This document shows positions 26,825 through 46,649 of a stretch of DNA of 64,000 nt, one piece after another. The position numbers and the translations under genes were made by a program. The DNA is taken from the NCBI GenBank assembly GCA_017621815.1, contig JAGASK010000029.1, positions 175,239-239,238 on the forward strand, given 5' to 3'. The notes below the pieces were generated by a model. That model was given only the letters and a program-made list of their open reading frames with translations, did not search any database and was not told where the DNA came from. Within the stretch, counting starts at the first letter, position 1; each line of letters begins with the position of its first letter. Source of the DNA: Lachnospiraceae bacterium. Lineage in GTDB: Bacteria > Bacillota > Clostridia > Lachnospirales > Lachnospiraceae.

Positions 26825-28822
26825 CTACCTGCTTTCACGCCTGAACTGTACAGGAGTCATTCCATAGGATTTTTTAAACAGCCTGTTAAAATGCTCCACA
26901 TTTTCATAACCTACGGAAGCTGCAATGCTCTCCACTGTCTGATTGGATTCTTTAAGCAGGGTTCTTGCTTTTTTCATTCTTGCCTTTTTAACGGCTTCCT
27001 GGAAGGTAATTCCCGCGTTTTCCTTAATGTACTTGGAAAGATAGGGCTTGGAAAGGTTGAAATTTTCAGCCAGTTCATCCAGAGTAACATCCTTATAGTG
27101 GTTTTTCAGATAATTCATAATGTCCACAATGCGCTCTTCCCTGCCCTCTTTGATGTTTTCATTCTGGGCGAGCTTATTTCCTGCGGAAACCAAAGCAGCA
27201 ATGGAGCTCTTGATAATATCCTCATCAATACCCACACCCCAGTACATCTTTCCGTCCTTCATAATGCCCACATAGGCAGCCGCTTTGGAAGAAGACCCTC
27301 TGGAAACCGCATGTTCCTCATAAACGGACAATTCATAGCTGACGCCGAAGTACAGCTTAATTGCATTGCTGACAGCATCAAGACGTCCGTTACCGGAGGT
27401 TTCAATTACTCTTCTTTCCTTATTCTGCTCAATGGTTACTTCTGCAGTAATACCGCCGTCTATCTGCTTAAAATGGCATTCCGGCACATTGAAAATTTCC
27501 CTCTGGTCAATATAGTTATCCTTAAAAATCTGGTAAATATCGGCAGGCGCAAGCTCGCTGTGCTTTCTGTCGGAAACGCCCTTCATCAAATAACCCACTT
27601 CTTCCTTCATCTTATCGGGAAGGGACATACCGAAGTTCTGTTTTAAGATAAAGGCAATGCCGCCCTTGCCGGACTGGCTGTTGATACGGATTACATCGGA
27701 CTCATATTCACGTCCCAAATCCTCAGGGTCAATGGGAAGATAAGGAACATCCCAGCGTCCGCCGCTCTTTCCTTCCTTCCACCATGCCATGCCCTTGGAA
27801 ATAGCATCCTGATGAGAACCGGAAAAGGCAGTAAATACTAAATCACCTGCATAAGGAGCACGCTCATATACCCTCATGCCTGTAAGCAGCTCATAAGTTT
27901 CACGGATTTTTGATATATTGGAAAAATCAAGCCCCGGTTCCACACCATGGCAGACCATGTTCATGACCAAAGTAATAATATCCACGTTACCTGTTCTTTC
28001 TCCGTTTCCGAACAGAGTTCCTTCCACCCTGTCCGCTCCTGCCAGCACCCCAAGCTCGGCATCGCTGACGCCGCACCCTCTGTCATTATGAGGATGTACG
28101 CTGAGCGCAACCGCATCTCTGTATTTTAAATTCTTATGGAAATACTCTACCTGGGAAGCAAACACGTGGGGCATTGCTATCTGTACGGTTGTAGGTATGT
28201 TGATAATTACCTTATTTTCTTTCACAGGCTGCCATACATCCAGCACTGCATTGCATACATCCAGCGCATAATCCACTTCCGTTCCCGGAAAGCTTTCGGG
28301 ACTGTATTCAAAGGTAAAATTGCCGTCAGTCTCATCTGCCAGCTGCTTAAGGAGCTTAGCTCCGTCTACTGCCAGCTGTTTTACTTCTTCTTTGCTTTTT
28401 CTGAAAACCTGCTCCCTTTGTGCCACAGATGTGGAGTTGTAAAGGTGGACAATAGCCCGGGGCGCTCCCTTTACTGCTTCAAAGGTTCTCTTGATAATAT
28501 GTTCTCTTGCCTGTGTCAGCACCTGAATAGTAACATCTTCAGGAATCATATCCCTTTCAATCAAAGCCCTGATAAAATTGTACTCTGTATCGGAAGCTGC
28601 GGGAAATCCCACTTCAATTTCTTTAAATCCGATTTCTACCAGCATCTTGAAAAACTGCAGTTTTTCCTCCAGATCCATGGGCTCAATCAGCGCCTGATTG
28701 CCGTCCCGCAAATCCACACTGCACCAGATGGGCGCCTTTTCAATCGTATCCTTCTTTACCCAGTCATAGGTTGTTACCGGGGGCATAAAATAAGATTTTC
28801 CATACTTTTTGGCTACATTCAT
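26825..28822 (-). CDS. leuA: 2-Isopropylmalate synthase fused to an AraC-type HTH domain
   Basis: A 665-residue protein. Residues about 1-550 are a full LeuA of the long (LeuA2) type: catalytic barrel with [13 protein letters not shown] and [14 protein letters not shown], then the linker and C-terminal leucine-sensing region. It condenses acetyl-CoA with 2-ketoisovalerate to start leucine synthesis. Residues 563-665 are an AraC/XylS DNA-binding domain with both helix-turn-helices ([20 protein letters not shown] and [20 protein letters not shown]) and the signature ending [10 protein letters not shown]. There is no stop or frameshift between them. ATG 28822 follows GGAGG. A leucine T-box precedes it. 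Confidence 0.93.
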
Positions 28823-28857
28823 TTCTTTTCCTCCATTTAAACTACTGCATATTGTAA

Positions 28858-29180
28858 TCATGAAAAAATCTCTATGAAAATGCTTTCTCACACTTTCATA
28901 GAGACGTAAATTCTTTACGCGGTACCACTCTATTTCACGGCATACCCTGCCATGCACTTACAGACACTGTCATGTCCTCTCCCTTTTACGGCGGAATTTC
29001 CGTCTGCGCCTACACAATCACCTGTCTGATGCCTGCTTTAACTCTTTCCTGCATTTGACCTGTCATCTTCAGCCAGCTGCTCCAAGGTGAGTTCGCTTTC
29101 CGCCAATGACTGCCTTGCACCCTCCGGCAGTTCTCTGATTTCCTGCTTCCAGTTACTATTCCTCTTCTTTGCATTTAAAA
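28858..29180 (-). promoter_or_regulatory. Leucine T-box riboswitch of leuA
   Basis: A tRNA-sensing leader read on the minus strand. The T-box sequence AGAGTGGTACCGCG is at 28918-28931, and stem I has the AGTA bulge and a specifier loop GAACTCACC whose codon CTC (29089-29091) is leucine. Uncharged tRNA-Leu should stabilise the antiterminator and let transcription reach leuA. Codons in this region on the same strand form a short frame, but it is leader RNA, not a gene. The 5' limit is approximate. Confidence 0.93.
28863..28904 (-). terminator. T-box regulated terminator
   Basis: TCTCTATGAAAGTG and CATTTTCATAGAGA form the stem, followed by TTTTTT, 40 bp before the leuA start. The T-box antiterminator competes with it. 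Confidence 0.92.
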
Positions 29181-34637: not shown

Positions 34638-35297
34638 CTACTGAGGCAGAAGAATTTCCGTTGTAAATGCGCCCTCTTCGCTGTTACGGTTTAAATACCC
34701 CTGATACCGTTCCACAATGGTATCAATACGGACCAGTCCGTATCCGTGCCCCACTCCTTTTCCTGAAAGGAAACGCCCCTGACTCTTGTTCAGCTTTTTG
34801 CCTGCAGTTGTATTGGTAAAAGACATATAAAGCTGTGTATTTTTCATATCCATATACACCCGGATTAAGCGTTCTTCCTTCGGCAGTTCCATACAGGCTT
34901 CGATTGCATTGTCAAACAGATTTCCTATAATAATACAAAGATCAATCTCTGCGGTGGTAAGGGCAACCGGTACGCTGGCATCCGCAGTCACCTGAATATC
35001 CTTTGATTTGGCGAGGGAAATCTTGCTGTTTAATATAACGTCCGTCATTTTATTTCCCGTCTTAATTGCCATATCCACCGTATTCAGGTCTGTATCCAGT
35101 TCATCCAGATATCGTTTTAATGCTTCCAAATCGCCCATTGTCGCATAGCTTTTCAGCACCTGAATATGATTTCGGTAATCATGCCTCCATCCCCGAATCT
35201 GACGGTACATGTTTTCCACCTCCGCATAATGGGTGGCAAGCAAATCACTCTGGTATCTGGCAATCCTCTTATCTATCATTTTATCTAAGAAATACAT
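34638..35297 (-). CDS. GHKL-type sensor histidine kinase, soluble
   Basis: A 219-residue kinase of the AgrC/citrate-sensor-like GHKL group. The phospho-acceptor His lies in WRHDYRNHIQ (about residue 38), the N-box is NLFDNAIEAC and the G-box is GHGYGL. There is no membrane sensor domain; only about 30 helical residues precede the His box, so it may sense an internal signal or rely on a partner. It lies 8 bp downstream of the LytTR regulator gene and 99 bp upstream of the broken ABC exporter. Confidence 0.87.
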   Translation of the reverse strand: MYFLDKMIDKRIARYQSDLLATHYAEVENMYRQIRGWRHDYRNHIQVLKSYATMGDLEALKRYLDELDTDLNTVDMAIKTGNKMTDVILNSKISLAKSKDIQVTADASVPVALTTAEIDLCIIIGNLFDNAIEACMELPKEERLIRVYMDMKNTQLYMSFTNTTAGKKLNKSQGRFLSGKGVGHGYGLVRIDTIVERYQGYLNRNSEEGAFTTEILLPQ

Positions 35298-35305
35298 GGC
35301 ACCCC

Positions 35306-36001
35306 CTAAAAATATTTAATCATGGCCTGATTAATCTTATCATAAAGTCCTCTTGATAAAGGAAGATTCATTCCGCTTTTCAAAAACACTTCATTTTTCG
35401 TAATTTTCTTTACACAGCTTAAATTTACAATATAAGAACGGTGAATTTGAAAAAACCGCTCATCCAACTCTCCGCTCATTTCCTTTAGTGAACGCTTGAT
35501 ACTGTAATCCTCCGCCCCATGAATAGTCACATAATTTTTCTGCACCTCCAGCCATTCAATTTCATACAAAGGTATCCGCCGCATTTCACCGGATGTTTCT
35601 AAAAGCAGTACTCTTTCCTGAACCTGAATGCGTCCCGCTGCCCGTTCAAGCACCTGATGCAGCTTTTCCTTTGTGACAGGCTTAAGCAGATAATGCAGGG
35701 CTTCCACATCATAGCCCTCTGAAATATATTCCATATACCCGGTAACAAAAATAATCTGAATGCTTTTGTTTTCCTTCCGGATGAGCTTTGCCAGCTCCAC
35801 TCCGCTCATTTTTCCCATTTCAATATCCAGCAGAAGAATGTCAAAATCCTTTTCTTCCTCATAAGTAAACAGAAAGCTTTCTGCTGAGGGAAAAGTCTTA
35901 ATCTCCGCACTGCTTCCCCTTACTTTCACCCACTGCTCTATAATTTCCTTTACATAAGCAAGGTCAGCCTGCTCATCATCACATATTGCAAATTTATACA
36001 T
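35306..36001 (-). CDS. LytTR-family response regulator
   Basis: A 231-residue regulator. The receiver domain (residues 1-125) has CDDE acidic pair, phospho-acceptor Asp in LLLDIEMG and Lys in LLKPVT. The LytTR DNA-binding domain follows (about 135-231, EIEWLEVQKNYVTIHG and FFQIHRSYIVNL). It forms a two-component system with the adjacent GHKL kinase; the pair is typical for control of peptide secretion or bacteriocin genes. Confidence 0.92.
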   Translation of the reverse strand: MYKFAICDDEQADLAYVKEIIEQWVKVRGSSAEIKTFPSAESFLFTYEEEKDFDILLLDIEMGKMSGVELAKLIRKENKSIQIIFVTGYMEYISEGYDVEALHYLLKPVTKEKLHQVLERAAGRIQVQERVLLLETSGEMRRIPLYEIEWLEVQKNYVTIHGAEDYSIKRSLKEMSGELDERFFQIHRSYIVNLSCVKKITKNEVFLKSGMNLPLSRGLYDKINQAMIKYF

Positions 36002-36210: not shown

Positions 36211-37560
36211 TTAACTAAGTAAAGACAATACACCCTGATTAGCCTGATTGGACTGAGCCAGCATCGCCTGACCTGCCTGAGCAAGGATATTGTTATTGGA
36301 GTACTTAACCATTTCTGTTGCCATATCTGTATCACGAATCTGGCTTTCAGCTGCAGTTGTATTTTCAACAACGTTATCCAGGTTGTTGATAGTGTGCTCA
36401 AGTCTGTTCTGAACTGCACCGAGTGCAGAACGCTGCTTAGACACTATTGAAATAGCATCTTTAATTGTATCAATTGCCGCAGTAGCATCATCTGCTGTCA
36501 TAACGCCATTTCCAGACAATGTATCTACACCAATACCCTTTGCAGACATAGACTTAATTGCTACTGTAATCTTATTGGCCTCGTCAGATTCAGAGCCAAC
36601 ATGCAACTTAAAAGTCAGATCCTTAGTCACTTGATAATTTTCTTCCGTTGGATCTCCCGCTGGCGTAACTGTTACAAAGTCATCAATCTGTTCTGCTCCA
36701 ACCTCTGCCCAACCACCGGCAGTTGTTTTAGCCTGCAAACCACCCTTGTAAGTACCATCTTCATTAAAGTAAAGCTTTAAATCTTCTTCCGCTACTTTCG
36801 TTACTCCGGCATCAGAATACAATGAGAATGCACTTGCACCATATATAGCCTGAATATCTGCATCAGTAACCTGATTAGCCTTAGTTTGTGCACCATATTC
36901 TGTAGTAACAGCCGCCGTCTTATAAAGCGCTTTTCCTTCTGCTGTAGTAACTTTACCATCCTCACCTACCACTAAATTTGCAATAATTGCATCATCATCT
37001 GCAAGTTTAGAATCATCTCCTTCTAAATACCATTCTGGAGTCGTCGCTGATTGTATTTTAGAAATAGTAACGGTTGTATTGTCCTTAGCATACTTGGCTG
37101 TCATGGGCGTGCCGTTAATTGTTTTGGTCTTAGTTTCCTCACCATCTCCCTTCAAAAGTTCTAACTCATTGAACTTGGTGGTCTCTGATACACGATCAAT
37201 TTCTGTTACCAGCTGATCGATCTCATCCTGAACAGCCTGACGATCATCTGCTGACATGGTTCCGTTAGCCGCCTTGGTTGCAAGTTCATCCATTCTCTGA
37301 AGCATATCATGAACTTCTGTAAGCGCACCTTCTGCTGTCTGCACTGCAGAAATACCGTCCTGTGCGTTCAGGGAAGCCTGCGTCAAACCTCTGATCTGTC
37401 TTCTCATCTTTTCACTAATTGATAAGCCTGCTGCGTCATCAGCTGCACGATTGATTTTGTAACCTGAAGAAAGTTTCTCGGTTGATTTAGACTGTGTCTT
37501 TGTTGTTAATCCTAACATTCTGTTAGAGTTCATTGCTGTAAGATTGTGTTGTACTACCAT
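36211..37560 (-). CDS. fliC: Flagellin 1
   Basis: A 449-residue filament protein secreted through the flagellar export channel. The conserved N-terminal D0/D1 part ([16 protein letters not shown] to about residue 140) and C-terminal D1/D0 part (about 370-449, ending QGVLSLLS) flank a variable centre. LQRMDELATKAANGT matches the TLR5-contact region. Its ends are nearly identical to those of flagellin 2. It has its own sigma-28-type promoter and a CsrA-target-like leader. csrA-1 lies 235 bp upstream. Confidence 0.96.
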   Translation of the reverse strand: MVVQHNLTAMNSNRMLGLTTKTQSKSTEKLSSGYKINRAADDAAGLSISEKMRRQIRGLTQASLNAQDGISAVQTAEGALTEVHDMLQRMDELATKAANGTMSADDRQAVQDEIDQLVTEIDRVSETTKFNELELLKGDGEETKTKTINGTPMTAKYAKDNTTVTISKIQSATTPEWYLEGDDSKLADDDAIIANLVVGEDGKVTTAEGKALYKTAAVTTEYGAQTKANQVTDADIQAIYGASAFSLYSDAGVTKVAEEDLKLYFNEDGTYKGGLQAKTTAGGWAEVGAEQIDDFVTVTPAGDPTEENYQVTKDLTFKLHVGSESDEANKITVAIKSMSAKGIGVDTLSGNGVMTADDATAAIDTIKDAISIVSKQRSALGAVQNRLEHTINNLDNVVENTTAAESQIRDTDMATEMVKYSNNNILAQAGQAMLAQSNQANQGVLSLLS

Positions 37561-37794: not shown

Positions 37795-38070
37795 TTACGG
37801 TTCCAGATTTCCGCGGGTGATAATCACACGGGAACTCTTTTTTCTGAGATACTTTGCATCCGTTTCAGGCTCCGCATAATACTTTGGAAGCTTAGCCTTC
37901 TCTTCCGGGTCAGTAATCTTATTTTCCAGTACTGTACTTCTGACAATATTGACATCTTTGGGAGCATCCACCATAATGCGCAGATGATTTTTTGTACCTC
38001 CCAGAAAGACAATTTTAATGTTATCATTAATCATCAGATATTCTTCTGTGCTTACTGTCAGCCTTAACAT
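37795..38070 (-). CDS. csrA: CsrA-like translational regulator 1, with C-terminal extension
   Basis: 91 residues. Residues 1-55 match CsrA (MLRLTVSTEEYLMINDNIKI, then LRIMVDAPKDVNIVRSTVL), including N-terminal Leu and the Arg equivalent to the RNA-binding Arg44. About 35 basic residues follow that usual CsrA (about 74 aa) lacks. ATG 38070 follows AAGGAGG; that GGA may allow self-control. It differs from csrA-2 at only two positions. It sits upstream of flagellin 1 on the same strand, 53 bp from the inverted repeat of invertible segment 1. No promoter is evident in those 53 bp. Confidence 0.85.
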   Translation of the reverse strand: MLRLTVSTEEYLMINDNIKIVFLGGTKNHLRIMVDAPKDVNIVRSTVLENKITDPEEKAKLPKYYAEPETDAKYLRKKSSRVIITRGNLEP

Positions 38071-38123: not shown

Positions 38124-38152
38124 ATGCAACAATCTTCACTAAAATGTTGCAT
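38124..38152. repeat. Inverted repeat IRL-1 of invertible segment 1
   Basis: A 29-bp site: arm ATGCAACA, 13-bp core containing TTCACTAAAA, arm TGTTGCAT. Its reverse complement occurs at 39918-39946 with 27 of 29 bases matching. The 8-bp arms themselves are inverted, as in binding sites of tyrosine recombinases. It lies between csrA-1 and the recombinase gene. Confidence 0.9.
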
Positions 38153-38174
38153 AACAAAACAACAGGAGGTCATT

Positions 38175-38753
38175 ATGAGTACAACACAGCCAATCAGAAA
38201 TATTGAACAATTAAAACAGTTTAAGAATTATTACAGATACGAAAAGCCAAACCAAAGGAACTATATGCTGATTATCGTTGGTTTAAATTCTGCTCTTCGC
38301 ATTTCAGATATTCTTCATTTAACCTATGGGGACATTTATGATTTTCAGAAAAAAGAATGGAAAACTCATATCACAATCAGAGAACAAAAAACAGGAAAGG
38401 TGAACCGCATTTATATTAACCGTGAAATCCGCAATACTCTGGAATACTGCAGTGATTATTCCCATCACCAGAAAGACAACTGGTTATTTGAAAGCCAGAT
38501 ACAAAATACCATGCCCTTAAGCCGCTTTCAGGCCTATCGGCTGATCAAGGAAGCTGCCGCCTTCGCCGGGCTTAACTCCGGTATCAGCTGTCATTCTCTC
38601 CGAAAGACTTTTGGTTATCATGCCTGGAAACAGGGAACACCGCCTGCCCTTCTGATGAATATCTATAATCATTCCACCTATCAGATAACAAAACGATATT
38701 TATGTATCGACCAGGATGATAAAGACGAAGTTTTTGAAAAAATCCGGCTTTAA
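38175..38753 (+). CDS. FimB-like tyrosine recombinase 1
   Basis: A 192-residue site-specific recombinase consisting only of the catalytic domain, the size of fimbrial invertases. All catalytic residues are visible: Arg42 (SALRISD), Lys72 (REQKTGK), His140 and Arg143 (CHSLRK), His166 (YNHST) and nucleophile Tyr175 (TKRYL). ATG 38175 follows AGGAGG. It starts 22 bp inside repeat IRL-1 and most likely flips the segment it lies in. The hydrolase gene follows at 62 bp. Its own promoter is not evident. Confidence 0.92.
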   Translation: MSTTQPIRNIEQLKQFKNYYRYEKPNQRNYMLIIVGLNSALRISDILHLTYGDIYDFQKKEWKTHITIREQKTGKVNRIYINREIRNTLEYCSDYSHHQKDNWLFESQIQNTMPLSRFQAYRLIKEAAAFAGLNSGISCHSLRKTFGYHAWKQGTPPALLMNIYNHSTYQITKRYLCIDQDDKDEVFEKIRL

Positions 38754-38814
38754 AGTAGTATACTATAGTTATCAGGAAAACCTGAATTTTGAAATCTGGA
38801 GGAAAAGATTAAAA

Positions 38815-39825
38815 ATGAAATTTGGATGCAGCAGCTTTTCTTGGGAAACTGAAGATAATAAACATTTACTCGGACGGACTTATGACCAGTTTGGAAATTT
38901 ATATGGGAATCGCATTGCAGCAGTTCCCCGCTCCTTTCATATGAAAACCGAAATAAGCGAAACCAGTAATTCCGCTGCAACGGTAAAGTATGCCTTTCTG
39001 GGAATGGCAGTTACCGGACTGAAAACGCCAGTCATGGTAGATGGCATTAATGAAAAAGGCTTGATGGGAGCTCTTTTAAACTACCCCGGTTACGCAGTTT
39101 ATGACACACAAAAACACAGAGACTGCCTTAATATCCATCCCGGCTTTTTGGTCGGCTATCTCCTGGGACAATGTGCTACGGTTGAAGAGGTGGCAAAACA
39201 GATACCATTTATCAATCTGACCAATGAAAAAATATTCAATCAGGAAATGACAGTTCACTATATTTTTTCCGATACTACAGGGGAAACAATCATTATAGAG
39301 CCGGATGCGGAAAGCATTCATGTTCACCGCAATACACTGGGCGTTATGACCAACAGCCCTGATTATTTGTGGCAGAGGACAAATCTCCGTAATTATGTAC
39401 CGGTAACCAATGTGCATACACCACCCCAAAACATCATCAATATGGAGTTTTCCTGCTTTGGACGGGGCACGGGCGGCGGATTCGGACTTCCCGGTGACTA
39501 TTCCTCAAGCTCACGCTTTGTAAGACTTGCAATGATGAAAAATTTTGCCGTAAAAGGAAAGGATGAAATTGACGGTATCACAAAGATGTTTCACAATTTT
39601 GCTCCCGTGGATATTCCTGAAGGAATTTTGAAAGCGAATAAAGAAGAAGCTTCTTATCACCAGACCTTGTGTATCACCGCTATGTGTGCTGAAAGTCTTA
39701 CCTATTATTTTTCCACCGTATCTGACAGACGTATATCGGCTCTCCGCCTGGAACGGGAAAAGGAAAATACCGGCATTAAATATTTTGACTTACCGAAAAA
39801 GCAGGATATTTCCTATTTAAATTAG
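38815..39825 (+). CDS. Choloylglycine hydrolase family protein (penicillin V acylase-like)
   Basis: A 336-residue Ntn hydrolase. The N-terminus MKFGCSSFSWET resembles penicillin V acylase, where residues before Cys are removed so that Cys (here Cys5) becomes the nucleophile; bile salt hydrolases instead start MC. Arg in LLGRTYDQ and the MTNSPDYLWQ motif (about residue 177) complete the site. No signal peptide, so cytoplasmic. The substrate may be a bile acid conjugate, N-acyl homoserine lactone or other linear amide. It lies inside invertible segment 1. GGAGG is 12 bp ahead of the ATG. Confidence 0.88.
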   Translation: MKFGCSSFSWETEDNKHLLGRTYDQFGNLYGNRIAAVPRSFHMKTEISETSNSAATVKYAFLGMAVTGLKTPVMVDGINEKGLMGALLNYPGYAVYDTQKHRDCLNIHPGFLVGYLLGQCATVEEVAKQIPFINLTNEKIFNQEMTVHYIFSDTTGETIIIEPDAESIHVHRNTLGVMTNSPDYLWQRTNLRNYVPVTNVHTPPQNIINMEFSCFGRGTGGGFGLPGDYSSSSRFVRLAMMKNFAVKGKDEIDGITKMFHNFAPVDIPEGILKANKEEASYHQTLCITAMCAESLTYYFSTVSDRRISALRLEREKENTGIKYFDLPKKQDISYLN

Positions 39826-39872
39826 CGTTAAAGTGATACGGATAAAATTTTTAAAAAATTTTGTTTATTCTC

Positions 39873-39899
39873 TAAAGTATTTGAAATTTATTCCGATAA
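39873..39899 (+). promoter_or_regulatory. Outward sigma-28-type promoter in segment 1
   Basis: TAAA (39873-39876), exactly 15 bp, TCCGATAA (39892-39899): almost the textbook flagellar promoter (TAAA-N15-GCCGATAT). It points right, toward IRR-1 and away from csrA-1, with the start point expected near 39906. There is no plus-strand gene to its right. Confidence 0.85.
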
Positions 39900-39908
39900 T
39901 AATATCAG

Positions 39909-39955
39909 ATAATAAAAATGCAACATTTTAGTGAAAAATGTTGCATTTTTATTAT
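39909..39955. terminator. Terminator hairpin built on repeat IRR-1
   Basis: A perfect 21-bp stem with loop AGTGA. Its right arm runs out of the invertible segment into fixed flank (TTTTTATTAT), giving a T-rich tail. In the present orientation it would stop transcripts from the promoter at 39873. It can also end minus-strand transcription from the glycosyltransferases. Confidence 0.8.
39918..39946. repeat. Inverted repeat IRR-1 of invertible segment 1
   Basis: A 29-bp site, the reverse complement of IRL-1 with two mismatches (at site positions 9 and 11). Confidence 0.9.
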
Positions 39956-40002: not shown

Positions 40003-41187
40003 CTATAATTTCCCCCATATTTCCAGCATCGAAATAATACGTTGCTGATAAGTATGCCCTTCCATTACTGTCTGAAAGGCCGCAGTTCTGACACGCTCCC
40101 TTTCCTCATAGCTGTTTCCATACCGCATGATTGCCTGCTTAAACTCTGCCGAATTAGTAAAATACACAAGATTTTCATTCATTTTAAAAAAATAATTATA
40201 ATCTTTTTGAAAACCGGAAATAGGAAAGCCTCCTGCAGCTATAATTTCCAGCATCTCCCTGGGGATACCATTGTGTAAATTATGGGGAGCTAATACCAAC
40301 GTAAATTCTTTGCCGGCATAAACTGCCCGTCGTTCTTCCTCAGTTTCAGGAAAAGATCTTTTTTCTGCTTTACAATGAGGAAAACTTCCATCGGAATAAA
40401 TTGTCATAATAGAATCAAAATTCTGCAAAAAAATACTCTGCTGTAAACCGGTACATACAGGGGCAAAAAAACAGTCAGCCATAAAAAGTCTCCGCATCTC
40501 AGGAAGAACTACCTCAGGAAGAACTACCTCCGGAACAGAATTACACGCCAGAAACTCCTGCTGTACCCGACGCAAAAGTCCGTCTTCCAGAATATATGCG
40601 CCATACAATACCCTCTGTGCATGAATAAATGCATCCAAATAGCCCTTTCCATACATAGTCATTTTCCCTGTTTTCAAACATTGCCCGGGATGCTTTGCCA
40701 CAAAGCAGCATTCTCTCTCGATAACAACATCTTTTACTGGTTCTTTCAGTTCTATGGCGTCAGGCAGAAAAAATGCCCTCGAAACGCCCAACTGCCATAA
40801 CTTTTCTACCAAATAACTATCACACACTGCCACATAATTACATTCATTTTTAACTGCAGCTGTATACAGGTCAAAATCAGGGAGTTGCAGTACCCAACTG
40901 CAATAAGGGATTTCTTCCTGTTTACAAAGATTTGATACCTGCGCAAAAAAATTAACAGAAAAAATAATATCCCCTGCTTTTGTGCGAAACTGCTCCTTCA
41001 AATAGCTTAATGACTGTCCAAAAGTATTTTCCCGTCTTCTGCCAGGCTGTATGTCAGAAACACTTTTCCAGTCATATATTAATTCCTCCGGGAGCGTTAC
41101 TGTATTTACAATGAATCCCACTGCTTTTAACGCACGAATAATAGCATCATCATAAGGATATCCCCACATGAGATATGTCAATTTCAT
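40003..41187 (-). CDS. CgeB-like glycosyltransferase (likely flagellin modification) 2
   Basis: A 394-residue cytoplasmic protein with an N-terminal Rossmann-like half and a C-terminal CgeB/Glyco_trans_1_2-type half (HNGIPREMLEIIAAGGFPISG, the donor-binding region). GAGGAAAC precedes the ATG. It lies 28 bp downstream of a related glycosyltransferase gene and two genes after flagellin 2, the usual place for flagellin O-glycosylation enzymes. A 15-bp DNA repeat (40501-40530) duplicates EVVLP. Acceptor role is inferred. Confidence 0.78.
   Translation of the reverse strand: MKLTYLMWGYPYDDAIIRALKAVGFIVNTVTLPEELIYDWKSVSDIQPGRRRENTFGQSLSYLKEQFRTKAGDIIFSVNFFAQVSNLCKQEEIPYCSWVLQLPDFDLYTAAVKNECNYVAVCDSYLVEKLWQLGVSRAFFLPDAIELKEPVKDVVIERECCFVAKHPGQCLKTGKMTMYGKGYLDAFIHAQRVLYGAYILEDGLLRRVQQEFLACNSVPEVVLPEVVLPEMRRLFMADCFFAPVCTGLQQSIFLQNFDSIMTIYSDGSFPHCKAEKRSFPETEEERRAVYAGKEFTLVLAPHNLHNGIPREMLEIIAAGGFPISGFQKDYNYFFKMNENLVYFTNSAEFKQAIMRYGNSYEERERVRTAAFQTVMEGHTYQQRIISMLEIWGKL
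40501..40530. repeat. 15-bp tandem duplication inside a glycosyltransferase gene
   Basis: Two exact copies of AGGAAGAACTACCTC, encoding a duplicated EVVLP in frame. This is a possible slippage product and could vary between strains without a frame change. Confidence 0.85.
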
Positions 41188-41215: not shown

Positions 41216-42418
41216 TTATCCGGGCAATCCGGCTTTCAATCCCGAGAGTTCCCATATTCGGTTCAGTTGATGTTCATAACTGAACTGATCCCTGACTATT
41301 TTGTATCCGTTCAATCTGATTTTATCAGCTTCCTCTTTATGCGTCAGATAATACTTGCATTTATCTAATGCTTCTTCTACAGAACTGTACATCAACAAAT
41401 CTCGTCCGTCTTTAAAATATTCCTCTATGTCCTTTTGATAATTTGTTAATACCAGAGAACGGCATCCCATAATATCGATTACTCTCTGAGGAATTCCATT
41501 ACGAATTGTCCTAAGGGTAATGTTCAAATTAATTTTGCTGCATTTAAATACCATCGGCATTTCACTCACATAATCAACTGTACTATATGTATGTACACCC
41601 GGAAGCTTTGGTGCACTGGTGGTAAACAGCTTTACATGAAAATACTTTGCCAGAAGCGTGAGCAAAAGCACACGCTCCTTATTTGTCACTGCCTTCAAAA
41701 GAAATGAAGCAAGCAACCAGCTTTTCAATTCATTCACATCATGAAAAAAATCATCATTCAAATTCTTAACAAGAGCATCTGTAACTTCTTCGTTACAGAT
41801 TCTTTTCATAATATCCGCATTAATCAATTCTTTCACAATATTCGTACCATAAATATTTAACTGTGTGTTGATAATGGCTGCGACATAACCCGCACTATAC
41901 TCATCAAACAACGGAAACATTTTATCCATATCTGACTGATAGAGCCGCCCCACCAAAGATACATCCGAATGGTACTTCATTTGTTCCATAGGGGAAGGCT
42001 TCATCTGGTTCAGACGTTTTACATTGACTGCCAAAGGTAAATAATACAAATTGGGAATATCACACTTCCGATACTCCTCTAATTCAGCAGAATCAAATAA
42101 AAAAATACGGTTTGTGTCAAGAAAATGACAATTTCTAACCCCTCCAAGTGCCGGACTATCGTATGTCCAGCAGATATACAGAATTCCTTTTTCATGGGCT
42201 GCATTTGCCAAATCTTCATAAAAGTTAATTGAAAAGACAGCATCATACGACTTTCTTTTCAAAGCTTTTTGCAGATTATCACGAAATTGATCCCTTTGAT
42301 TCTCGAATCTTGGAGAAGCATTTGAAGTAAATAAATCAAATTCAATTCCCATTTTCTCTAACTCAAGATATAAATCATGCTTAGTAATGAATGTCCAGTT
42401 ATAAATTAAGAGTCTCAT
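41216..42418 (-). CDS. CgeB-like glycosyltransferase (likely flagellin modification) 1
   Basis: A protein of about 400 residues (MRLLIYNWTFITKHDLYLEL start) with a DUF3880-like N-terminal half and CgeB-type C-terminal half (NGIPQRVIDIMGCRSLVLTN and FKDGRDLLMY). I use ATG 42418 behind CAGGAG; the longer frame overlaps the flagellin 2 end and terminator. It follows flagellin 2 directly and is probably reached by read-through or an unseen promoter. Role in flagellin glycosylation is inferred from family and position. Confidence 0.8.
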   Translation of the reverse strand: MRLLIYNWTFITKHDLYLELEKMGIEFDLFTSNASPRFENQRDQFRDNLQKALKRKSYDAVFSINFYEDLANAAHEKGILYICWTYDSPALGGVRNCHFLDTNRIFLFDSAELEEYRKCDIPNLYYLPLAVNVKRLNQMKPSPMEQMKYHSDVSLVGRLYQSDMDKMFPLFDEYSAGYVAAIINTQLNIYGTNIVKELINADIMKRICNEEVTDALVKNLNDDFFHDVNELKSWLLASFLLKAVTNKERVLLLTLLAKYFHVKLFTTSAPKLPGVHTYSTVDYVSEMPMVFKCSKINLNITLRTIRNGIPQRVIDIMGCRSLVLTNYQKDIEEYFKDGRDLLMYSSVEEALDKCKYYLTHKEEADKIRLNGYKIVRDQFSYEHQLNRIWELSGLKAGLPG

Positions 42419-42506: not shown

Positions 42507-44084
42507 TTAACCAAGTAAAGACAAAACTCCCTGATTACTCTGGTTTGCCTGAGCAAGCATAGCCTGACCTGCCTGTGCCAGAATATTGTTGTTTGAATAT
42601 TTTACCATTTCAGTAGCCATATCAGTATCACGAATCTGGCTTTCTGCGCTTGTAGTATTCTCAACTACATTGTCCAGATTACTGATAGTATGCTCTAAAC
42701 GATTCTGAATTGCACCAAGTGAAGATCTCTGATCAGATACCTTATTTAATGCCGCCTTAATAGTTTCTATGGCATTTAATGCATTAGTATCATCCTCACC
42801 GTCTACTTTTAATCCATTTACACCAAGTGTTGCAGCACTCATAGATTTAATATCCAGCGTAATTTGATTATTAGCGGTTGCATCTGCTCCTACGTGAAGT
42901 TTCAAGGTCAAAGCACCAACTTCAAATCGATCAGTACTGTCCACAAAGGTATCTACATCCTCCTGTCCTGCAGGTTTGTGCGCAGTTACTCCTTCTCCCG
43001 TCTTTAAGTATAAACCGGCATCCGGATCCAGTTTGCCATTATTGTCAATGTATTTATCCAGTCCATTAGCCGCAATTTCATTACCATCCTTATCAACAAA
43101 CTGAACCTTGCTCTTCACTGTATAATCAGAAAGCGCAACAGCATCACTCGATGCACCAAGCTTCACATTTGCTAATGATGAATAATACTTAGATATAGCT
43201 GTAGCATCGGAGCCAATATCTGTGCCGCTTGCCACTTTACCGTCTGAACTATACACATCCTTGGTAGTCAGGTAATGAGCAGCCGTTTCCGCAACACTTG
43301 TTGCCAAAACCATCTCACTGTCAACGATGCCCGTCCCTGCTGTAGCAGTGTAATACTCTTTTGAGGAATCGTATTCTGTTCCGGAAGCAACTGCATAGAA
43401 CTTATCTCCGTCTTTCGTATAATACTTATCTGCCGCCGTAATCACATTCTTAGATGCCACAAAATCAGCAGAATCACTGCTTGCAATTGTCATACCTGCC
43501 TGTACACCTGTGCTGTCACTATAATAATTCATTGTGGTATCTACAGCCTTCAAAGAAGTACCCTTATCCAGTGTCTTTACTTCCGTTCCAACTAGATAGT
43601 AAAGATCCTGTTTGATAACATCACCTTCTTTATACTTAAAATTAATATCCTTTACCTCTGCGTTTTCATCACCTTTAAGCAGATAAATTTCATTAAACTT
43701 GGTTGTTTCTGATACACGGTCAATTTCTGTTACCAGCTGATCAATCTCAGCCTGTATTGCATCACGGTCAGATTCTGAATTGGTACTGTTTGCTGCCTTA
43801 ACTGCCAGCTCGTTCATTCTCTGAAGCATATCCTGTACTTCATTTAATGCACCTTCTGCTGTCTGCACTGCGGAAATACCATCCTGTGCATTTGCGGAAG
43901 CCTGTGTCAGGCCTCTAATCTGCTTTCTCATCTTTTCACTGATGGAAAGACCTGCCGCATCATCTGCCGCACGGTTGATTTTATAACCGCTTGAAAGTTT
44001 TTCTGTGGACTTAGCCTGTGTTTTTGTGTTGACACCTAACATTCTGTTAGAGTTCATTGCTGTAAGATTGTGTTGTACTACCAT
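42507..44084 (-). CDS. fliC: Flagellin 2
   Basis: A 525-residue flagellin. D0/D1 ends match flagellin 1 almost residue for residue ([16 protein letters not shown] and the final QGVLSLLG), while the centre (about residues 145-450) is different and longer, rich in Ser, Thr, Asp and Tyr-Tyr pairs (for example [13 protein letters not shown]), which suits glycosylation. It has its own sigma-28-type promoter and CsrA-target-like leader. csrA-2 lies upstream and two glycosyltransferase genes downstream. Confidence 0.96.
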
Positions 44085-44316: not shown

Positions 44317-44592
44317 TTACGGCTCCAGATTTCCGTGGGTGATAATCACGCGGGAACTCTTTTTTCTAAGATACTTTGCATCCGTTTCAGGCTCTGCATA
44401 ATACTTCGGAAGCTTAGCCTTCTCTTCCAGATCAGTAATCTTATTTTCCAGTACTGTACTTCTGACAATATTCACATCCTTGGGAGCATCCACCATAATA
44501 CGCAGATGATTTTTAGTTCCTCCCAAAAATACGATTTTAATATTGTCATTAATCATCAGATATTCTTCTGTGCTTACTGTCAGCCTTAACAT
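44317..44592 (-). CDS. csrA: CsrA-like translational regulator 2, with C-terminal extension
   Basis: 91 residues, the same as csrA-1 except Leu for Pro near residue 54 and His for Arg near 86. It keeps the CsrA core (residues 1-55) and the basic 35-residue tail. AAGGAGG precedes the ATG. It lies upstream of flagellin 2 and 52 bp from repeat IRL-2. As for csrA-1, no promoter is visible in the fixed DNA upstream, so expression should depend on what the invertible segment presents. The leader sequences of the two csrA genes are closely alike. Confidence 0.85.
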   Translation of the reverse strand: MLRLTVSTEEYLMINDNIKIVFLGGTKNHLRIMVDAPKDVNIVRSTVLENKITDLEEKAKLPKYYAEPETDAKYLRKKSSRVIITHGNLEP

Positions 44593-44644: not shown

Positions 44645-44673
44645 ATGAAACAATTTATAATCAAATGTTGCAT
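44645..44673. repeat. Inverted repeat IRL-2 of invertible segment 2
   Basis: A 29-bp site: arm ATGAAACA, core with TTATAATCAA, arm TGTTGCAT. Its reverse complement lies at 46613-46641 with 27 of 29 matches. The arms resemble those of segment 1, but the core differs. Confidence 0.9.
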
Positions 44674-44696
44674 TTTTATAAAAGGAAGGAGAAACT

Positions 44697-45281
44697 ATGA
44701 GCACAACACAACCTATCAGAGACCCTCAGCTTTTGAAGGATTTTAAAGACTACTACCTGCACCGCTCACCAAATATCAGAAATTATGCTTTATGCATTCT
44801 GGGGTTAAATACCGCCCTGAGGATTACAGATATGCTGAATCTTAAATGGAAGGATATTTACCGGTTTGACAAGGCCGCCTTTCGTCCGCACCTTACAATC
44901 AAAGAAAAAAAGACAGGAAAACAAAACACTGTTGCCTTAAACCAAGCCGTTACGGACACTATGTCACTTCTTTTTTCCAGCCAGCCTGCCGCTCCCTGCG
45001 AAAACGGTTATATCTTCGTCAGCAGAAACGGAAATAATTGTCCTTTAAGCAGATATCAGGCTTACAGGATTATCAGGGAAGCAGCTTCAAATCTTGGAAT
45101 GCAGCAGCATATCAGTTGTCATTCCCTTAGGAAAACCTTTGGATATTATGCCTGGAAGCAAGGCACCGCTCCCGCAATGCTTATGACAATCTTTAATCAT
45201 TCTTCTTATCAAATTACCAAGCGTTATCTTGGAATTGAACAGGATGATAAAGATAAAGTATTTTTAAATATTTCCCTTTGA
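44697..45281 (+). CDS. FimB-like tyrosine recombinase 2
   Basis: A 194-residue catalytic-domain-only recombinase, clearly paralogous to recombinase 1 (same MSTTQPIR start, CHSLRKTFGY and NHSSYQITKRYL blocks). Arg42, the KKTGK Lys, His-x-x-Arg, His and the Tyr nucleophile are all present. GGAAGGAGA precedes the ATG. The central regions differ more, which fits recognition of a different repeat core. Predicted to invert segment 2. Confidence 0.92.
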   Translation: MSTTQPIRDPQLLKDFKDYYLHRSPNIRNYALCILGLNTALRITDMLNLKWKDIYRFDKAAFRPHLTIKEKKTGKQNTVALNQAVTDTMSLLFSSQPAAPCENGYIFVSRNGNNCPLSRYQAYRIIREAASNLGMQQHISCHSLRKTFGYYAWKQGTAPAMLMTIFNHSSYQITKRYLGIEQDDKDKVFLNISL

Positions 45282-45392
45282 CCACACCTGAGCGGTTATA
45301 TGATTTTGTCCGTGTTTTGTGGGATAAACGTAAAATAATTATTGAATTTATGACAATTACATGTTACGATATGTTCAAAGCAAATGATTTCT

Positions 45393-45443
45393 ATAAGCGA
45401 AAGCTTATTTAGCGGCATTGCCGCATCTCACAGAACATTCTGT
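45393..45443. repeat. Three consecutive small hairpins
   Basis: ATAAGC-GAAA-GCTTAT, GCGGC-ATT-GCCGC and ACAGAA-CA-TTCTGT stand in a row in the 287-bp gap upstream of the Rpn gene. They could be a structured leader; the rest of the gap shows no gene. Confidence 0.5.
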
Positions 45444-45568
45444 TCGTACTTCTTTGAAATCCTGCTTTTAAAAATCCAATTAATAAAAAAGCAGGAAGAT
45501 GAGAACAGATACGGCTATTGCCGACAAAGGTTTTTCCATACATTTTCCTGCAGTAAGGAGGAAAACAT

Positions 45569-46513
45569 ATGGAAAACGAAACAGTAACAATGCTGGAAAA
45601 CCTGAATCTTGTGGACAGATTTCTCTTTGACGAGACCATGGAAAACAGGGAGGCTTATGAAGCGGCAGTCAGCATCCTGCTCGAAAATGAAACAAAGTTA
45701 TTGGACAAATCCGAGACAGAAAAAGAGTTCAGGATTTCGCCGCAGCTCCGGGAAGTCAGGCTGGATGTGGTCAGCATGGACAGCGGCAAAAAGATTTATT
45801 ACACGGAAATGCAGCAGAAAAATACCGGAAATCTCAGGAAAAGGAGCCGTTATTATCAGGCTCACATAGATGTATCACTGTTGGAGCCGGGAAGCAGGGA
45901 TTTCAATACACTGAATGACAGCTGTTTTATCTTGATAGCGCCCTTTGACATTTTCGGGAAGGGACTGTGCCGTTATACCTTTGAGGGAACCTGCAGGGAG
46001 TGCCCGGGATTAAAACTTGGGGATGGTGCAATCCGAATCTTTATCAACACCAGGGGAAAAAACAGGACTGATTTTTCAGAAGAGTTCCTGGACTTTATAG
46101 ACTATGTAACAAATTCTTCCGCAGAAATAGCAAGCAGAACAAAAAGCAAAAAAATCAAGCTGATCCACAAACAGGTACAAAAGATAAAAAAATCAGAAAA
46201 GATGGGGGTAAAGTATATGCAGAGGTGGGAAGAACTGGCAGAGGCAAGAGATGAAGGACTTGCCGAAGGCCGCAGCAAAGGACTTGCCGAAGGTCGCAGT
46301 GAAGGACTTGCTAAGGGTCGCAGTGAAGGCGAGGAACGAAAACTGATTAAACTGATTTGCAAAAAACTCTGTAAAGGAAAACCAATGGAAGAAATCGCAG
46401 AGGATTTGGAAGAAGAACTTGAAGAAATTGAGCGAATCTGTAAGGCAGCAAAAGACTTTGAGCCTGATTATGATTGTGACAGGATTTATGCGAGGCTGCA
46501 CGAAAAACAGTAG
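45569..46513 (+). CDS. Rpn family recombination-promoting nuclease / PD-(D/E)XK protein
   Basis: A 314-residue protein of the Rpn/PDDEXK transposase-like family. The catalytic core is at residues about 65-90 (RLDVVSMD, then YYTEMQQK, giving D and ExQ). A Gly/Ala/Glu/Arg repeat tract (EGLAEGRSKGLAEGR, about 225-255) leads to a C-terminal helical region. GGAGG precedes ATG 45569. It is the cargo of invertible segment 2 and lies downstream of recombinase 2. Whether it assists recombination or is a passenger is unknown. Confidence 0.88.
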   Translation: MENETVTMLENLNLVDRFLFDETMENREAYEAAVSILLENETKLLDKSETEKEFRISPQLREVRLDVVSMDSGKKIYYTEMQQKNTGNLRKRSRYYQAHIDVSLLEPGSRDFNTLNDSCFILIAPFDIFGKGLCRYTFEGTCRECPGLKLGDGAIRIFINTRGKNRTDFSEEFLDFIDYVTNSSAEIASRTKSKKIKLIHKQVQKIKKSEKMGVKYMQRWEELAEARDEGLAEGRSKGLAEGRSEGLAKGRSEGEERKLIKLICKKLCKGKPMEEIAEDLEEELEEIERICKAAKDFEPDYDCDRIYARLHEKQ

Positions 46514-46567
46514 AAGTCACTCTTCGCAGACTCTTTTTAATTTTTTTAGATTTTTTTGAATCAGCTA

Positions 46568-46594
46568 TTAAGTAATTCAAAAAGAGTCCGATAT
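46568..46594 (+). promoter_or_regulatory. Outward sigma-28-type promoter in segment 2
   Basis: TTAA (46568-46571; one change from TAAA), 15 bp, TCCGATAT (46587-46594). It points right, into IRR-2 and away from csrA-2. It matches the promoter at 39873 in position, spacing and direction. Confidence 0.78.
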
Positions 46595-46604
46595 ATATAA
46601 CAAG

Positions 46605-46649
46605 AAACAGCAATGCAACATTTGATTATAATTTGTTGCATTGCTGTTT
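46605..46649. terminator. Terminator hairpin built on repeat IRR-2
   Basis: A perfect 16-bp stem: the repeat arms extended by AAACAGCA inside the segment and TGCTGTTT outside it, ending in a T run. It would stop rightward transcripts from the promoter at 46568 in the present orientation. Confidence 0.8.
46613..46641. repeat. Inverted repeat IRR-2 of invertible segment 2
   Basis: A 29-bp site, reverse complement of IRL-2 with two mismatches (at site positions 4 and 10). Confidence 0.9.

Follow-up and report, generated by a model that had tools for sequence, protein, structure and literature searches.

Does the DNA between two inverted repeats beside a csrA-like gene and a flagellin gene turn around, and which genes would its orientation control? 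The question was raised by a stretch of 64,000 nucleotides from a Lachnospiraceae bacterium (assembly GCA_017621815.1, contig JAGASK010000029.1), here referred to as the window. For this window the original prediction had described a single invertible segment with its own recombinase (38124-39946), acting as a phase switch for csrA-1 and flagellin 1. Our analysis of the window, the complete 3.5 Mb assembly and related genomes revealed two such arrangements, the second of which (44645-46641) had been overlooked. Based on their sequence, both are very probably independent, parallel ON/OFF phase-variation modules, each of which would switch an operon of a csrA-like gene and a flagellin gene. The proposed phase switch is supported by opposite orientations among relatives (3 ON and 68 OFF of 71 segments) and by crossover spacers that are identical within site pairs.

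Anatomy of the two modules

Both modules share the same layout. A recombination site, a tyrosine recombinase gene, a cargo gene, a sigma-28-type promoter and a second recombination site are located upstream of a CsrA-like gene, which is followed by a flagellin gene.

Module 1 is bounded by 29-bp inverted repeats, confirmed here with 27 of 29 matches. The csrA-1-proximal site (38124-38152) is an imperfect palindrome and shares its core spacer with the csrA-1-distal site (39918-39946), the palindromic arms of which are perfect. Between them the plus strand carries the gene of a small tyrosine recombinase of 192 aa (recombinase 1, 38175-38753), with its ribosome-binding site immediately 3' of the proximal site, followed by cargo 1 (38815-39825), which encodes an enzyme of the choloylglycine-hydrolase / penicillin-V-amidase family (PF02275), and by sigma-28-type promoter 1 (TAAAGT-N14-CCGATA, 39873-39898). 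The promoter, TAAAGTATTTGAAATTTATTCCGATA, agreed in 12 of 12 positions with the two scored hexamers of the sigma-28 consensus. Its presence had been predicted correctly; its direction away from csrA-1, and hence the OFF state, had been omitted. The distal site forms the middle of a perfect 21-bp hairpin with T-runs (39909-39955), also overlooked before and here named predicted OFF-state terminator 1. On the minus strand csrA-1 (37795-38070; CsrA-like, 91 aa, with a C-terminal extension) starts 53 nt from the proximal site. Flagellin 1 (36211-37560, minus strand, PF00669/PF00700) is located 3' of csrA-1 behind a leader of approximately 230 nt, which was predicted to be structured by RNA folding.

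Module 2 was detected by a palindromic-motif search of the window. Its csrA-2-proximal site (44645-44673), with a core spacer unlike that of module 1, and its csrA-2-distal site (46613-46641) enclose three features on the plus strand. These are: the small tyrosine recombinase 2 (44697-45281, 194 aa), which is 56% identical to recombinase 1; cargo 2 (45569-46513), a Rpn-family PD-(D/E)XK nuclease or putative transposase (TIGR01784, 72.7 bits, cut-off 52.1); and sigma-28-type promoter 2 (TTAAGT-N14-CCGATA, 11/12, 46568-46593), directed away from csrA-2 and therefore OFF as well. The predicted OFF-state terminator 2 is an extended hairpin across the distal site (46605-46649, bounds read from the sequence). 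On the minus strand csrA-2 (44317-44592), 98% identical to csrA-1, begins 52 nt away from this proximal site, and flagellin 2 extends from 42507 to 44084.

Both recombinases belong to PF00589 (79.9 and 85.5 bits for recombinases 1 and 2, cut-off 27.1). At E ≤ 0.001 the recombinase matched no other Pfam family, and membership in the serine recombinases (Hin type) was not found. The residues R42, K72, H140, R143, H166 and Y175, which we take to be the catalytic, family-defining residues of tyrosine recombinases, were invariant in 16 aligned sequences including both window copies, and recombinase 1 is complete as predicted. With NF007370 and NF007371, presumably the FimB and FimE models (named tyrosine-type DNA invertase by NCBI), it reached 41.8 and 49.0 bits versus cut-offs of 221 and 222, respectively, so that FimB and FimE, named for comparison in the original prediction, are distant relatives only.

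Cargo 1 matched PF02275 with 267 bits as expected, yet stayed below the NCBI cut-offs for bile-salt hydrolase (238 of 350) and penicillin-V amidase (235 of 600). Among the relatives described below, 57 of 72 distinct segments were not longer than 950 bp, hardly more than the recombinase gene, and an evident second gene was present in 5 of the 16 longer segments inspected (both window modules, L075, L092 and L112). We therefore regard the cargo as a sporadic passenger and rejected it as a component of the mechanism. An Rpn-type nuclease was seemingly a recurrent cargo, found by HMM in the window (45569-46513) and judged by eye in L092, L112 and L075.

Recombination sites and orientation among relatives

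A search of 60 genomes, our own included, detected the recombinase at E ≤ 1e-10 in 21; of the 35 relatives from the same genus, 13 were positive. Scanning named genomes yielded at least 550 recombinase relatives, the best 80 of which were kept; 61 of these 80 were titled Lachnospiraceae or Acetatifactor. In an order-level sample of genomes with at least 85% completeness, again including our own, 35 of 294 had a recombinase match at E ≤ 1e-60.

From the same-genus/60-genome search and the named-genome scan, 112 recombinase places in 108 sequences were examined. A CsrA-like gene was found near the recombinase at 86 of these, usually followed by a flagellin gene; the other 26 had no csrA-like gene nearby. 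A repeat pair was found at 81 of the 86 places. Removal of L133, in which csrA was misplaced relative to the called repeat, and of eight duplicates left 72 distinct segments, and for the orientation count L120 was also excluded because its repeat was spurious, which gave 71. In L118, which has two csrA genes, the more distant one was used for pairing. The five places with csrA for which no repeat had been found were L044, L071 (a duplicate of L044), L096, L116 and L137. Pattern searches showed sites in L044, L096, L116 and L137, and in L044, L096 and L137 promoters were directed away from csrA; these are beyond the 71.

The pattern ATGCAACA-N13-TGTTGCAT, one mismatch being allowed, occurred at four places in the whole assembly, all of them in the two modules, and the reversed control pattern had no match. 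With up to three mismatches four sites were found in the window versus 0.64 expected, a number reached in none of 100 shuffles.

Sites of the form TGCAAC-N15-GTTGCA were present in 49 of the 72 pairs, the arms being common to all 49. The remaining 23 pairs (N14 spacing, GTAAC-type arms, or repeats shortened or misplaced by the finder) were omitted from the scoring of spacers. Within pairs, positions 11-16 were identical in 49/49 and position 17 in 48/49, while identity at these central 7 bp (positions 11-17) was 27-74% between pairs. Likewise, the two sites had the same 8-bp core in 47 of 49 pairs, as opposed to 9 of 1176 comparisons between pairs. The mismatches of paired sites were mainly located in the outer half-site (63-67% identity at positions 7, 8 and 10), and the core hardly varied. 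A tyrosine recombinase accepts any arm-matched partner but requires identical overlap DNA. A core that is matched within and variable between pairs is the signature expected of strand exchange by such an enzyme. The cores of the two window modules differ from each other (TTTCACTAA and TTATAATCA), as do those of the two modules in L074, and neighbouring switches should therefore be insulated from each other.

An inverted site pair, a matched spacer and an enclosed promoter, the features of an inversion switch, were hence all present. The comparison of orientation in related genomes, proposed along with the original prediction, revealed both states between one related genome and another. In 68 of 71 segments, including both window modules, a sigma-28-like promoter (at least 9/12) was located at the csrA-distal end and directed away from csrA. 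In three segments (L077, L104 and L107) it was located at the csrA-proximal end and directed into csrA. Six loci with a variant -10 hexamer, CCGAAA in five of them, were counted as OFF. The promoter was close to the repeat, just inside one end, in 71/71 segments. The distal end had a match of at least 11/12 in 65 segments and the proximal end in 3 (shuffle averages 0.07 and 0.02, respectively).

Promoter and recombinase gene turned together. The main group consisted of 63 OFF segments with the recombinase divergent from csrA and two ON segments with both genes co-directional. A smaller group, in which the recombinase is reversed inside the segment, comprised five OFF segments with co-directional and one ON segment with divergent genes. 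Direct alignment of L077 with the OFF relatives L074 and L076 placed the segment on the plus strand and csrA and flagellin on the minus strand. Contigs that end near the sites could hint at mixed orientations; they were looked at in the locus tables and not counted as evidence. A csrA-flagellin locus of another family (L251, weak csrA match, beyond the 71) had a 10/12 promoter facing csrA.

Some loci deviated from the common layout. In L086, which lacks csrA, the recombinase and promoter are located between two divergent flagellin genes. L110, also without csrA, carried three sites of the same core and three flagellin genes, one of them cut by the contig end. L149, likewise lacking csrA, carried two same-core sites, a third, nearly identical site read by eye, and two divergent flagellin genes. 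In all three the promoter now drives one flagellin gene and a second one lies on the opposite flank, which suggests a two- or three-way selection between flagellins. In L120 and L133 the recombinase lies outside the short stretch enclosed by the site pair.

Among 13 more distant places from the order (L247-L259), eight had a site pair approximately 130-175 bp apart beside the recombinase (L248, L249, L250, L252, L254, L256, L257 and L259). No flagellin match was found near these eight in the stretch fetched; they seem to be small invertible segments serving other genes.

The OFF-state hairpin and the proposed target genes

At the distal site the outer half nearly complements the inner half (9.4 of 10 positions on average), and the distal outer flank can lengthen the stem and add a T-run, as in the 21-bp stem of module 1. 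RNA from promoter to flank was folded for 65 loci (62 OFF, 3 ON), the junction absent from each assembly being constructed virtually. The OFF junction had a median of -21.3 kcal/mol with 22 pairs across the site, the ON junction -15.3 kcal/mol with 14 pairs. The OFF junction had the larger number of pairs across the site in 59 of 65 loci and the smaller number in four, and the 12 nt at the 3' end of the stem contained 6.0 T for OFF versus 2.6 T for ON. In 31 of 49 pairs the promoter-side half was better complemented by the distal outer half than by the proximal one; the reverse held for 5 pairs, and 13 were tied (p = 2e-5). The hairpin at 39909-39955 looks like a terminator for promoter 1, which inversion is predicted to weaken and to leave poorer in T in the ON state. 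By prediction only, the arrangement belongs to the inversion-controlled intrinsic terminators of the cwpV type.

The distance from the csrA-like start (placed by BLAST) to the proximal site was 33-151 nt in 71 of 72 segments, with a single outlier of 574 nt, which leaves little room for another promoter. Of 76 stretches between csrA and flagellin, 73 were free of a sigma-28-like match of at least 9/12. Five flagellin genes had neither csrA nor a site upstream; here, a 12/12 match was located 196-226 nt upstream in L074 and twice in L076, and none was found in L061 and L130.

The proposal that csrA is the target stood insofar as a CsrA-like gene is linked to the segment; this is a divergent, flagellin-linked copy, not clearly the global regulator. 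csrA-1 belongs to PF02599 (63.3 bits), and with the CsrA equivalog TIGR00202 it scored 37.0 versus a cut-off of 70.1. In 30 of 37 genomes of the genus a CsrA of 85-92 bits is located beside fliW, and the switch-linked CsrA proteins form a separate, lower-scoring group (~60 bits, PF02599). Global csrA was for this reason not accepted as the target.

The genome contains two CsrA genes, both in the modules, and three flagellin-type proteins, two of them encoded in the modules and the third, judged a flagellin by eye, outside. With flhA and four PF06429 matches of rod/hook type the genome is equipped for flagella. FliW, a CsrA of ~90 bits, a long FlgK-like PF06429 match and a further flagellin-type match as possible FlgL had no match in the 91.6%-complete assembly. 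Since 30 of 37 genus genomes have FliW and FlgK/FlgL-like matches were missing as well, we did not accept the absence of FliW as a biological fact; one flagellar cluster is probably missing through an assembly gap. The contigs concerned are C14, C30 and C44.

Both window flagellin leaders carried GTACAAGGAGGT over the ribosome-binding site, which agreed in 11 of 12 positions with the CsrA consensus. Translational control of flagellin by the CsrA-like protein is plausible from these leaders. Site strength gave no sign of a target preference: the mean was 9.4 of 12 in 65 leaders behind csrA versus 9.2 in 13 leaders without, the latter set wrongly including at least one row of the window. It was dropped as a sign of target choice for lack of a difference.

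Several neighbouring genes were recorded. A GHKL sensor kinase and a LytTR response regulator (34638-36001, minus strand) directly adjoin flagellin 1. Two glycosyltransferase-like genes with DUF3880 (40003-41187 and 41216-42418) are located between the flagellin cassettes and possibly serve flagellin glycosylation. Unusually, a single frame at 26828-28957 (minus strand) encodes alpha-isopropylmalate synthase domains fused at the C-terminus with an AraC-type helix-turn-helix.

Proposed switch, alternatives and known systems

Anatomy, paired spacers, both orientations among relatives and the predicted hairpin asymmetry were read from the sequence; the action of the recombinase on its sites, transcription in the ON state, terminator function, the role of CsrA and a rate of switching are what we infer. 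The recombinase encoded inside the segment would recombine the two inverted sites of ~27 bp and flip the segment. In the OFF state the promoter would fire away from csrA into the hairpin terminator formed by the distal site and its outer flank, and the csrA-like gene and the flagellin gene behind it would be left without the segment promoter. In the ON state the promoter would face csrA. The inner half-site would now be combined with another outer half and another flank, giving a weaker hairpin poorer in T, and both genes would be co-transcribed. The CsrA-like protein would then most likely tune translation of the same flagellin and/or repress others. The private crossover spacer of each module should stop recombination between modules.

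Several observations weigh against this switch. Both window modules are OFF and our own assembly contains no ON state; orientations were compared between species. L077 is 72-75% identical to its OFF relatives within the segment and the far flanks did not align; its turn is one between species, relative to csrA and flagellin, and the segment may have been re-inserted in the other direction instead of inverted in place. OFF dominates with 68/71, which may reflect a dominance of OFF cells in the gut or biased switching. The loci are not independent, as close relatives and several modules per genome were counted, and site pairs were found by similarity (at least 80%, 8-nt exact seed), which somewhat favours matching cores. 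A foreign outer flank still gave a median of -18.4 kcal/mol and 21 pairs versus 22 with the true flank. This weakens the argument from the flank: most pairs come from the palindromic site, and the contribution of the flank is added stability. Finally, both window leaders have a 10/12 sigma-28-like match ~120 nt before the flagellin gene, expected in 4-5% of shuffles; if it is a real, weak private promoter, flagellin would not be wholly dependent on the switch.

The excess of one orientation would also be explained by a promoter-carrying mobile element with inverted-repeat ends that lies beside csrA, no longer flips and is effectively fixed. Relatives of the recombinase are common on plasmids (913 records, all below 60% identity) and occur in viral contigs (at least 401), an Rpn-type nuclease is found as cargo, and the unaligned flanks of L077 and its relatives would allow opposite re-insertion there. 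Such an element is nevertheless very unlikely in our opinion, and it was set aside because of the three segments turned with promoter and recombinase together and the spacers which agree within and diverge between pairs. The promoter adjoining the repeat in every segment also speaks against it, as do the site pairs of L120 and L133, which unlike element ends exclude the recombinase. We find it still harder to believe that the segment is productive as currently oriented, with a function on the far side, e.g. antisense control of the glycosyltransferase gene at 40003-41187. The promoter does point that way, and in L086, L110 and L149 it drives a flagellin gene with a second one on the other flank, but both window promoters run straight into a long hairpin and the far flanks of the ten segments inspected had no common gene start.

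An opposite or wider logic of the same inversion, rather doubtful in our view and yet clearly more probable than the two preceding explanations, is that the ON state makes a CsrA-like protein which silences other flagellins, so that the main effect would be an exchange of filaments, as with FljA in Salmonella, instead of a mere ON/OFF control of one flagellin. CsrA represses flagellin translation in B. subtilis. The frequent CsrA-like gene near the recombinase (86/112 places, usually with flagellin behind), the third flagellin-type gene outside the modules and the CsrA-consensus-like GGA sites over the ribosome-binding sites of flagellin leaders (e.g. GTACAAGGAGGT) are in agreement with this idea. 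Against it, these sites score alike with and without csrA (9.4 versus 9.2), leaving no target preference visible, and some switch loci (L086 and L110) have no csrA at all.

The inversion module favoured here has counterparts in known systems. The fljB promoter of Salmonella is sigma-28 dependent. As far as the available parts of two papers describe it, the recombinase gene hin and the promoter are located inside the invertible segment of hin/fljBA, and one orientation drives a flagellin together with a repressor of the other flagellin while the other orientation is silent (PMC9368917, PMC2784873). The recombinase within the inverted DNA, thought to be new in the original prediction, is thus already known from Salmonella (PMC2784873, in the part available). 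The Lachnospiraceae modules share this layout and the flagellin operon with a companion gene. In contrast to Hin, a serine recombinase with hix sites and a Fis-bound enhancer, they use a tyrosine recombinase and spacer-matched sites. Their companion is CsrA-like instead of FljA and precedes the flagellin gene, and the genome has two modules, each with a hairpin on the OFF side.

In the accessible parts of the respective papers, the tyrosine recombinase RecV of C. difficile inverts the short segment Cdi4, which controls flagellar genes (PMC7446863, PMC5903667). Tyrosine recombinase, flagellar genes and a clostridial gut bacterium are common to both cases. By the same account, however, the C. 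difficile switch acts within the flgB operon leader, Rho ends OFF transcripts prematurely and RecV serves several switches, whereas in the Lachnospiraceae the promoter itself would turn, a flagellin operon is the target and each switch contains its own recombinase gene. For cwpV (Cdi1) of C. difficile, the OFF transcript was proposed to gain an intrinsic terminator through inversion (PMC2784873). An orientation-dependent terminator on the OFF side is thus shared with cwpV as described there; by that description the cwpV promoter lies outside the inverted DNA and the terminator alone changes, whereas here promoter direction and terminator would change in one exchange.

In fim of E. coli the small tyrosine recombinases FimB and FimE invert a promoter. 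The fim recombinases adjoin the switch and are not located inside it, as stated in the available part of PMC2784873. Unlike fim, the Lachnospiraceae recombinase lies within the segment, and the homology is distant (42-49 bits versus cut-offs of 221-222). To our knowledge no described system joins a hin-like layout, a tyrosine recombinase and an orientation-dependent terminator.

No description of the Lachnospiraceae flagellin inverton was found in the literature searched, to the extent that it was accessible; subscription literature was mostly out of reach, and inverton surveys may list such loci. By term look-up in the parts available, flagellar terms were absent from the main texts of PMC11892184 and PMC10939037. 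PMC3720852, on motility genes of Eubacterium and Roseburia, contained csrA and neither recombinase nor phase variation, and PMC5903667, on inversion signatures in Clostridia, did not name Lachnospiraceae or Roseburia (term look-up, available parts).

A wider reading, to which we give about an even chance, is that the modules represent a widespread convergent counterpart of hin-fljBA in gut Lachnospiraceae, built from unrelated parts, i.e. a tyrosine recombinase, a sigma-28 promoter, a terminator made by inversion, and a dedicated CsrA-like repressor with flagellin. It would have been multiplied into modules with private spacers for combinations of flagellins, and would act as a two- or three-way selector in L086, L110 and L149.

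The exchange of promoter and terminator in one step would be a compact design, and looking for paired sites with matched 7-bp spacers is a simple way to locate switches of this kind. The flagellins that gut Lachnospiraceae produce are a major target of host immunity. If the proposed switch is true, the heterogeneity of this surface antigen in commensals would be directly measurable from long-read metagenomes, and a heritable switch, found OFF in 68 of the 71 copies assembled, would contribute to an explanation of how bacteria whose genomes encode flagella can live in the gut without filaments.

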